From Promethearchaeota archaeon (GTDB lineage Archaea; Asgardarchaeota; Lokiarchaeia; Sigyniarchaeales; SOKP01): a stretch of DNA of 44,573 nt. The notes below the pieces were generated by a model, which was not told the DNA's origin, ran no database searches, and was given only the letters and a program-made list of their open reading frames with translations. Below, piece after piece: positions 14,393 through 41,280 of the stretch. Both the position numbers and the translations under genes were made by a program. The DNA is taken from the NCBI GenBank assembly GCA_004524535.1, contig SDNY01000015.1, positions 1 through 44,573 on the forward strand, given 5' to 3'. The stretch's first letter is position 1, and the number at the start of each line of letters is the position of its first letter.

Positions 14393-14971
14393 ATGCAAGA
14401 AAAGAATAGAAATACAGAGGAAAAACTTACGAATTTTAAATGTCCAGCATGTAAAGACGGCGACATTGTAATTAAGAAGATTATCTACGACCTTCCAGAT
14501 AAGGATAAAATGCTAATTTTAAAATTTAAATGTAATAGATGTGATTTTGAAAATAATGATATTATCCCTTTAACCACTAGAATGGATGCTGGTATTATAA
14601 CTTTAAAAATCACTGAAGAAAACGATCTTAAATCTAAAATATATCGTTCTCCGACAGGAAATTTAGAAATCCCTGAATTGGAGTTAAAAGTAGAACCTGG
14701 GCCGAGTGCTGAATTTTATTATACTAATGTAGAAGGAATATTACTCAGATTTGAGCGAGCTGTTTCAATCTATCTAGATAATCTTGAAGATGCTAATCCA
14801 GAAAAAAGCGAAATAAAAGATACTTTAAAAGATTTACAAAAAGCCATGAAAGGACAACTTGAATTTACTTTAAAAATTGCAGATCCTAGCGGAGGGAGTT
14901 ATATAATCCCCGAAGATAGGTCAAAATATACTTTTAAAAAAATTGAAAATTTTGAAATAAATAAAGAATAA
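14393..14971 (+). CDS. ZPR1-like zinc finger protein
   Basis: FKCPACKDGDIVIKKIIYDLPDKDKMLILKFKCNRCDFENNDIIPL zinc finger followed by the ZPR1 beta domain (SPTGNLEIPELELKVEPGPSAEFYYTNVEGILLRFE). Confidence 0.85.
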   Translation: MQEKNRNTEEKLTNFKCPACKDGDIVIKKIIYDLPDKDKMLILKFKCNRCDFENNDIIPLTTRMDAGIITLKITEENDLKSKIYRSPTGNLEIPELELKVEPGPSAEFYYTNVEGILLRFERAVSIYLDNLEDANPEKSEIKDTLKDLQKAMKGQLEFTLKIADPSGGSYIIPEDRSKYTFKKIENFEINKE

Positions 14972-15051: not shown

Positions 15052-16228
15052 ATGACAATTAAAAAAGTTGGAATTTTAACGGGCGGCGGAGCCATATTCA
15101 AGATTCTCCTTGATTGCCGTATACTGCCCTGGCTTAAATTCTGTATTATATGGTATCATGCTTAAAGCTTTTGATGCCGGTGTTGAATGCGTTGGAATTC
15201 TTAAAGGATGGAAAGGATTTTTAGAAAATCTGACAATACCACTTAATATTGCTGAACATGATGACCTTCATACCATAGGTGGTACTATTCTCTATACAAG
15301 CAGAACTAATCCTTTTAAAGGCGTTGAATCAAAAGAAGAAAAAGCAAAAGAAATTGCTGCTAAATTTGATGAGTTAGGTATCGATGCTCTAATATGTATA
15401 GGAGGAGATGATACATTAGGAGTGGCAGATTTGATGTATAAGCATGCAAATGCGAAGGTTGTTGGCTGCCCAAAAACGATTGATAATGATCTAGCGGGCA
15501 CCCATTACACTTTTGGATTTTGGAGCGCAGTTCAATTAGCATCGGATGCAATGGATAATTTAACAACCACCGCACGATCACATCAAAGAGTTTTTATTGT
15601 AGAAGTTATGGGACGTGATGCTGGATTTCTTACGATTTATAGTGGAATTTCGAGTGGTGCAGATATCATCTTAATCCCAGAGACCCCATTCAGTTTAGAA
15701 AGAGATGTTATCGAAGTTCTTAAAAAGAGAGTTAAAGCAGGGTATAAATATCACATTATTGCGTGCTCTGAAGGTGCTTATCCGGATAAAGATTCGCTTA
15801 AACGAGACTTTAAGACAATTACCCAAGAGACAATTGATAAATTACCAAAAGATACGTTTGGAAATCCTGTATTGCCTGCCCTAAATATGTCTCAAGTCCT
15901 TGTCGATGAATTGAATCTAAGAGATGATTTAAAAGAGGAATTTCAAGAGAATGGTGTGGATTTTGAAATACGAAGCGTTGTATTAGGACATACAATGAGA
16001 GCAGGACACCCGATTTCATTTGATCGAATTTTAGGATTACGATTTGGTTTAGCAGCTATGAAACTCGTGTTGAAAGAGGATTTCGGTAAAATGGTTTCCC
16101 TCCAAGGGAATCAAATTACTACCTTCCCACTCGATGAAGGTGTTAAAAAGAAATATTTAACTCCTGATAATGATAAAATGGAACTCCGGGATTTATTGGT
16201 AAAAATTCGCTATTTATCAAAGCAATAA
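15052..16228 (+). CDS. pfkA: 6-phosphofructokinase (PFKA fold), reading frame interrupted by a 31-nt insert at 15092-15122
   Basis: Frame from ATG 15052 reads MTIKKVGILTGGG; frame downstream reads CPGLNSVLYGIMLKAFDAGVECVGILKGWKGF...GGDDTLG...PKTIDND. Removing 15092-15122 joins them as GGGDCPGLNS, the PFK loop (381 aa product). Calling the gene from TTG 15110 would lose the phosphate-binding loop. Confidence 0.85.
15092..15122 (+). other. Candidate archaeal-type (bulge-helix-bulge) 31-nt intron in the phosphofructokinase gene
   Basis: Coding-inferred junctions GGAG^CC and UAU^ACUG fall inside bulges of a foldable structure: h GGGCG(15081-85)/UGCCC(15125-29), central helix GCGG(15086-89)/CCGU(15117-20), 5' bulge AG^C, 3' bulge AU^AC, inner stem with UCAAG(15098-102)/CUUGA(15109-13). 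Confidence 0.7.
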
Positions 16229-16307: not shown

Positions 16308-16646
16308 TTAATCTGTCCAAGAATGGACTAAATTTTTCATTTTTTTTAATAAATTTCCAAGTTCTATACCTTTTTTAGTTAAAGAATACGATACCTTTAC
16401 AGGACTATCAGTTTCAACAGATCTATTTAATAATTCTAAATTTTCGGCTTCTTTTAATCTGGTGGAGAGACTTTTCGGTCCCAATTTCTGCATGTATTTG
16501 AGGAACTCATTAAATCGGAGCTGTTGAATTTCCATTAAATGCATTATTATATACACACTCCATTTCTTCCCTAAAAAGGTTAAAATCTCACATCCACATC
16601 CAGGGAAGCAGTCATTCATTCCACAATCACAATTAACTTCATTCAT
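16308..16646 (-). CDS. HxlR-family winged-helix transcriptional regulator with Cys-rich N-terminus
   Basis: CGCEILTFLGKKWSVYIIMHLME...LRFNEFLKYMQKLGPKSLSTRLKEAENLELL: HxlR pattern; N-terminal CDCGMNDCFPGCGCE. Confidence 0.88.
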   Translation of the reverse strand: MNEVNCDCGMNDCFPGCGCEILTFLGKKWSVYIIMHLMEIQQLRFNEFLKYMQKLGPKSLSTRLKEAENLELLNRSVETDSPVKVSYSLTKKGIELGNLLKKMKNLVHSWTD

Positions 16647-39807: not shown

Positions 39808-41280
39808 TTGAAAGCTGAATTAATTGAGTATGACGCTACTAGTTTAGGAGAAATGGTCCGAGAACGAAAAGTTAAATCATCCGAATTAGTAGAGATGACT
39901 ATCGAGCGAATTGAGCGAGTTAATCCTAAACTCAATTCTGTAATTTATAAAATGTATGATGAGGCACGTAAAAATGCAGAAAAATGGGATAAGGAAATTA
40001 GTACAGGTAAAAAAATTGATGCTCTTTTTAGTGGGATACCATTCCTTTTAAAAGATATTTGTGCAGAATATGAAGGAACACCTTACTGTTCAGGCGCTAA
40101 ACTCCTCAAAGGAAATATTTCAAAATGGGATACAGAGCTAGTGAAACGTCATAAAGCTGCTGGATTAATTGTAGTTGGTAAAACTAATACTCCTGAATTT
40201 GGTATTCTTCCCACTACAGAACCCGTCTTATTTGGACCGACAAGAAACCCTTGGGATCTAAATATAACATCAGGAGGGTCGAGTGGTGGTTCAGCCGCAG
40301 CTGTAGCCGCTGGAATCGTCCCAATGACCCATGGAAACGATGGAGGGGGCTCAATTCGTATCCCCGCCTCTTGTTGTGGAGTCTTTGGTCTGAAGCCTAC
40401 TCGCGCTCGGAACCCTCTCGGTCCACGTTATGGTGATATTGGCAGCGGAATAGTCTCAGAACACGCACTTACTCGCACAGTAAGAGATTCAGCAGCATTA
40501 TTGGATGCAACATCAGGACCAGACATAGGAGATCCTTACTTTGCGCCGCCAAAAAAACGCCCTTATTTAGAAGAAATTCGTCATGAAGTGGGGCGTTTAA
40601 AAATTGGATATTTAACTTCCGTTCCTAAGGGATGGAGTTCCAATACTAAAGTTCATCCAGATTGCGAGAAAGCAGTAAAAGATGTCGCTCAACTATGTGA
40701 AAGTTTAGGACATAATGTTGTAGATGTAAATCCAGAGGAATTAAGTTATACAAATCTTTTCACGGCTTTTAGTGTTATGTATATTTCCATTACTGGTTCG
40801 AGTTTAACATATATAGAAAAAGAATTAGGGACCAAGATTACAGAAGACCAAATGGAACCTTTGACTTGGTTATTTTATCAAAATGCGGTAAGACGAACTG
40901 CTTCTGATTATTTACTAGCATTAGAAGAATGCCAGCTCTTTTCACGGAAAATAGCACAATGGTTTCATAAAGGTGGATATGATTTATTACTCACTCCGAC
41001 AATGTCCATTCCTCCAGTAAAGATTGGATCCTTTACGGCAGAGAATATAGGTAAATCTTTCCAGTTAATGAGTCAAATGAGTGCTTTTACTAGTATCTTT
41101 AATATAACAGGTCAACCAGCCATGTCCGTTCCATTATATTGGAATGCTGATAATTTACCAATAGGCCTTCAATTCGCAGGTCGTTTTGGTGATGAAGCCA
41201 CTCTTTTCCGTTTAGCAGCTCAATTAGAGCAAGAAAGACCTTGGATTGATCGAAAACCTTCGATCTACTGTAGCCATTAA
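39808..41280 (+). CDS. Amidase (amidase-signature family, GatA/FAAH-like)
   Basis: [69 protein letters not shown] start. Confidence 0.92.

Follow-up and report, generated by a model that had tools for sequence, protein, structure and literature searches.

A 31-nt insert interrupts the PFK gene of a Lokiarchaeota genome

The window that we analyzed (44,573 nucleotides; positions 1 to 44,573 of contig SDNY01000015.1, forward strand) comes from a Lokiarchaeota genome of 3.66 Mb and 99% completeness, hereafter G000, and contains the single-copy phosphofructokinase (PFK) gene of that genome. Upstream of PFK lies a gene for a ZPR1-like protein (14393-14971, + strand), and downstream, on the opposite strand, one for a HxlR-type regulator (16308-16646, - strand). 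The PFK reading frame opens at ATG 15052, encodes MTIKKVGILTGGG and is then broken; from the residues CPGLN on, PFK continues in a different frame to 16228. An initial annotation, made from this sequence alone, had reported the same start, the loss of frame and an unspliced stop at 15163-15165, all of which are present, and had proposed that deletion of exactly 31 nt restores the gene. Our analysis confirms that proposal, as removal of exactly 15092-15122 yields GGA GAC TGC CCT GGC TTA AAT, encoding the conserved PFK loop GGGDCPGLN. The Pfam PFK match, which covers profile positions 11-276 (279.9 bits) in the unspliced ORF, extends to profile position 1 in the spliced sequence (positions 1-276, 297.9 bits).

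Table 1. PFK of G000 and the elements of the bulge-helix-bulge (BHB) predicted around its insert (window positions)
Feature	Position	Strand	Remarks
PFK exon 1	15052..15091	+	MTIKKVGILTGGG plus first base of Asp codon; conserved in relatives
31-nt intron, EndA-type, predicted BHB	15092..15122	+	coding-exact deletion; same site in 12 genomes; covariation
PFK exon 2, remainder of gene including stop	15123..16228	+	intact coding sequence, Pfam PFK match
Exon-exon helix, 5' arm	15081..15085	+	pairs with 15125-15129; 100% paired in nine alleles
Exon-exon helix, 3' arm	15125..15129	+	pairs with 15081-15085
Central helix, exon 1 arm	15086..15089	+	pairs with 15117-15120; 100% paired in nine alleles
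Central helix, intron arm	15117..15120	+	pairs with 15086-15089
5' bulge AG^C	15090..15092	+	inferred cut after 15091
3' bulge AU^AC	15121..15124	+	inferred cut after 15122; 3 nt if C15124-G15085 pair
Inner intron hairpin	15093..15116	+	15093-94, 15096, 15098-15102 with 15109-15114, 15115-16; two pairs with two-sided changes

The insert and its flanking exons are predicted to form a BHB

The helices that the initial annotation had assigned to a near-canonical BHB are all found in the sequence (Table 1), and this assignment is supported by covariation as well as by eight more sites in other genes or loops. Its 4-nt 3' bulge is one of two readings: pairing of G15085 with U15125 leaves 4 nt, but pairing of C15124 with G15085, with U15125 bulged, gives the canonical 3 nt. 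C15124 is the third base of the Asp codon, which is GAC in every intron-bearing allele and GAT in most intronless alleles, and this fits pairing of C15124.

We scored the exon-exon, central and inner helices at coding-inferred junctions and compared the scores with those at 40,000 random positions; where several equivalent junctions gave the same spliced sequence, the best one was used in data and null alike. The PFK cut-site geometry of G000 reached p = 3e-4 in this test and ranked second among 169 nearby cut pairs in a grid test. Folded alone, the G000 element has a minimum free energy no better than that of shuffled sequences (z = -0.75), so we dropped thermodynamic stability as evidence, and the case rests on comparison with relatives. 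In the nine 31-nt alleles compared, the BHB and inner hairpin are paired in 97.4% of cells, versus 33-64% when the structure is slid, and the number of pairs with two-sided (compensatory) changes, two, was reached in 6 of 500 shuffles. The allele of G004 shows a register slip that retains the inner stem. What goes beyond chance at this site is the cut geometry and, most of all, how the element is conserved and covaries among relatives.

PFK introns are patchily distributed among relatives

We compared Candidatus Lokiarchaeota MAGs produced by independent projects; the family comprises 66 species genomes, and 63 of them contain a PFK match. The initial annotation had called for alignment with the pfk genes of relatives, and this alignment places an intron at the same site (site 1) in 12 of the 66 genomes, spanning five genera (G000, G001, G002, G004, G011, G013, G014, G019, G045, G047, G049 and G052). 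Its length is 31 nt in ten genomes and 32 nt in G013 and G014. With the G029 gene, whose sequence reads N at the loop, left out of the scoring, the remaining full PFK copies are uninterrupted in the GGGD-PGLN loop, including that of G003, from the same genus as G000; such intronless sister genes are what is expected for a patchily gained or lost intron.

Eight genomes (G004, G019, G043, G045, G046, G047, G049 and G057) carry a second PFK insert, 30 nt long and containing in-frame stops, in the other conserved loop, IGGDDT (site 2), where covariation taken alone is weak. The intron-bearing PFKs have dN/dS values of 0.05-0.10 and are under purifying selection. Two of them (loci L042 of G045 and L039 of G011) have ATA in place of the relatives' ATG start with unchanged upstream spacing, reflecting either a weak start or a mis-assigned one.

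Inserts of similar size occur in other conserved genes

We screened ~2.2 Mb from G000, G002 and G003 by searching every ORF against the others. Clean 30/31-nt inserts were found at two sites in the RNA polymerase A' gene (rpoA1) of G000 (L172), in a CdhD-like gene (L163) and a gene adjoining rtcB (L064) of G000, in a POR-family (IorB-like) gene of G002 (L249) and in an alpha/beta hydrolase gene of G003 (L193). The lokiactin gene of G002 (L249; Pfam Actin E=6e-128) has an insert of this size between HR and MWVTRRE. The intron proposed by the initial annotation at PFK site 1 is supported, but that annotation had missed how general such introns are, with a second PFK intron in relatives and others in RNA polymerase A', lokiactin and further genes. 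Split codons at the junctions rebuild the conserved residue. In the CdhD-like gene and at the first RNA polymerase site (L172a), the coding-exact junctions coincide with canonical EndA cuts: each lies two bases inside a 3-nt bulge, and the two bulges flank a 4-bp helix. At some other sites the exon-exon or central helices are weak, and the motif is relaxed.

The first RNA polymerase A' site holds 30-nt alleles in G001 and G025 and the second site in G033 and G034, while the first also holds longer inserts of about 65 nt in G023 (L306) and about 50 nt in G016 (L307). Three alleles of the first site contain five compensated pairs, one of which joins the third base of a glycine codon to an intron base. 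The G023 insert resembles two introns back to back, and the G023 and G016 inserts have a common 3' hairpin that differs between them by compensatory changes. A search of 232 genomes of the phylum shows, among the listed matches inspected (all but a few lower-scoring ones), stop-containing or split copies of this RNA polymerase region in this Lokiarchaeota family only; among the close copies of lokiactin listed, only that of G002 is broken at the insert position. A divergent actin paralogue in G003 (G003:C10:653504-653878) has two in-frame TAA codons and is a candidate for a further intron. All in-frame 30-nt introns (the PFK site 2 alleles, L064, L163, L172a, L193 and each such rpoA1 intron of G001, G025, G033 and G034) contain an in-frame stop, which may stem from a bias in detection or from selection against reading through unspliced messages.

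In the junction test, p was at most 3.2e-4 at seven of nine independent sites, 0.007 at one and 0.11 at one; the second RNA polymerase A' site (site B) scored poorly under this rigid test (p 0.11-0.5). The combined p for EndA BHB geometry over the nine sites was ~2e-21 against random positions, a value to be read knowing that at a few sites the coding-equivalent junction was picked with the BHB in mind and that the score was designed after PFK had been seen. Most coding-inferred junctions ranked 1-3 of 169 in the grid test. Among 65 stop-free inserts of 8-12 residues from the same screen, none scored >24 and none had an intron-like BHB score. A covariance model of site 1, run on 82 genomes of the order, matched PFK site 1 only, plus the intronless junction of G057 at 25 bits, and so shows that other genes hold no family of copies similar to it in sequence. 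We abandoned a homology-free pattern scan for the AG^-hairpin-BHB arrangement, whose matches were mostly due to chance, in favor of homology-based detection. From the screen we dropped UTR alignments, antisense shadows of PFK and likely errors on inspection, L110 (a 14-nt split), L092 and L095 being among the discarded loci.

G000 encodes a splicing endonuclease and a ligase

G000 encodes two subunits of the splicing endonuclease EndA. The alpha subunit aligns to the Aeropyrum pernix (A. pernix) catalytic subunit (3p1z, 3ajv) and keeps both the catalytic His and, as in A. pernix, the lysine in the loop specific to Crenarchaea; that loop is reported to allow relaxed motifs to be cleaved and to give a broad substrate range (PMC6379350). 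The other subunit appears to lack the catalytic His. An RtcB gene is also present, and ARAGORN predicts introns in 9 of the 15 tRNAs in the sampled DNA. Pre-mRNA splicing has been linked to heteromeric EndA (Yoshinari 2006, as cited in later work). We infer that these mRNAs would be cut by EndA and ligated by RtcB in vivo.

PFK introns probably move together with flanking exon sequence

The PFK genes of G043 and G045 are about 99% identical on either side of one sharply bounded co-conversion tract of about 0.2 kb, which comprises the 5' UTR and about 25 codons from the start of the gene. Codons within it are just about 75-80% identical, intron 1 is present in only the G045 copy of the two, and the leader of G045 is similar to the one in G004, a member of another genus. 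Local identity dips likewise near the introns when G052 is compared with G038 and G049 with G059, and the PFKs of G047 and G057 are mosaics. Comparisons of G011 and G000 with intronless relatives are without a local dip, as expected if these introns are older. We read these patterns as recombination or gene conversion that probably carries the PFK intron together with its flanks.

A search for a homing endonuclease found none in the intron and no linked gene; elsewhere in the genus, the only matches to LAGLIDADG_1 were weak. Those matches, possible homing endonucleases that are not PFK-linked, lie in L316 (G000:C26:42188-42445) and L315 (G001:C41:3042-3260). That a trans-acting endonuclease moves the PFK intron is speculative.

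The sampled sequence contains five introns in 128 testable intervals in G000 (a count that includes PFK, the starting case, and the rtcB locus, fetched for another reason), three in 269 in G002 (PFK included) and one in 237 in G003. As a rough figure, these sampled intervals suggest about 10-100 mRNA introns per genome. We lean toward a broader reading, in which genomes of the family would each hold tens of ~30-nt EndA-spliced mRNA introns. These would form a dynamic, genome-wide population in conserved genes, those for RNA polymerase and actin among them, and would spread horizontally into the same conserved codons, in a homing-like manner or by recombination, without a self-encoded endonuclease.

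Proposed mechanism and alternative explanations

We consider it very probable that the 31-nt insert is an intron of tRNA type (EndA/RtcB) in the PFK pre-mRNA, one of a population of ~30-nt mRNA introns coming and going in this Lokiarchaeota family. Exon 1, the intron and exon 2 would form the near-canonical BHB, the heteromeric endonuclease would cut both bulges, and RtcB would ligate the exons and rebuild the Asp codon (G/AC) of the GGGDCPGLN loop. Introns of ~30 nt would be gained and lost between lineages and, at least in PFK, would have moved with flanking exon by recombination. The sequence-level hallmarks of a BHB pre-mRNA intron are found here: deletion restores the exact conserved reading frame, two bulges surround a ~4-bp helix with the inferred cuts two bases into the bulges (near-canonical at PFK site 1), the helices carry compensatory changes (at PFK site 1 and in RNA polymerase A'), and the host encodes a splicing endonuclease and the RtcB ligase.

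Programmed translational bypassing occurs in phage T4 gene 60 and in mitochondrial byp elements, and the inserts described here are likewise short, with hairpins and stops, inside coding genes. That ribosomes hop over them and the RNA is never spliced is nevertheless very improbable, since at phase-1 and phase-2 junctions the conserved residue needs bases from both sides; in 10 of 11 PFK site-1 alleles, hopping would put Tyr or His where the conserved Asp belongs. In addition, exon bases pair and covary with intron bases, and the cut geometry fits EndA. There is a small chance that the inserts are removed from RNA by another nuclease or ligase, a route favored by the irregular central helices at RNA polymerase A' site B and in the POR/IorB-like gene. 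Against such a route, most sites are near-canonical BHBs and the encoded EndA is of the broad-specificity type; nor was any signature of a group I or group II intron found, Rfam giving no match anywhere in the window, and a ribozyme needs far more than about 30 nt.

The broken frame and the use of MAG data would also be compatible with a pseudogene, a sequencing error or an assembly artefact, and the initial annotation had named an artefact, or a second intact PFK with this copy silent, as grounds against an intron. These readings are scarcely credible, given that 12 independently assembled species genomes have an insert at this site and that its sequence has diverged among them, that dN/dS of about 0.1 contradicts decay, and that the affected genes include single-copy, essential-type ones (PFK, RNA polymerase A'); G000 has no second PFK.

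Relation to known introns

To our knowledge, archaeal mRNA splicing has been documented for essentially one gene, cbf5. We found no report of an Asgard mRNA intron in the open full-text literature, preprints and most subscription journals being outside this search. The kind of element is already known, as a cbf5-type archaeal pre-mRNA intron; as far as the searched literature goes, what is new is the Asgard lineage, the number of genes, the reuse of the same conserved sites and the transfer with co-converted flanks. From these sequences, archaeal mRNA splicing looks far commoner than the textbook single case.

Lokiarchaeota are Asgard archaea, a microbial group related to the ancestor from which complex cells arose. 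If our reading is true, these archaeal relatives of eukaryotes use the tRNA machinery to splice several mRNAs in each genome, including those of RNA polymerase and a eukaryote-like actin, and the entry, spread and tolerance of introns in coding genes without a spliceosome become testable. On the practical side, genes of this kind (PFK, rpoA1, lokiactin) would be absent from Loki gene predictions or appear there in truncated form.

The cbf5 pre-mRNA introns of Crenarchaeota are of BHB type and 16-44 nt long (Watanabe 2002; Yokobori 2009, PMC2738675), and have been described in that single gene as ancestral and lost in some lineages (PMC2738675). The Loki introns resemble them as short BHB introns in protein genes with lineage-specific presence and absence and a heteromeric EndA, but lie in many unrelated genes per lineage, at two sites per gene and in Asgard archaea, and in PFK have probably been transferred between genera with co-converted flanks. 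They have the motif and the predicted enzymes (EndA, RtcB) of archaeal tRNA and rRNA introns, but sit in mRNAs, keep tightly to a length of about 30 nt and have junctions that restore a reading frame. Like mobile rRNA and group I introns with homing endonucleases, they occupy the most conserved motifs with co-converted flanking exon, but are far too short to encode an endonuclease. As in byp elements and T4 gene 60, the inserts are short, hairpin-bearing and within coding sequence; unlike those elements, they have junctions that split codons and follow EndA geometry, and PFK site 1 is without matched take-off and landing codons.
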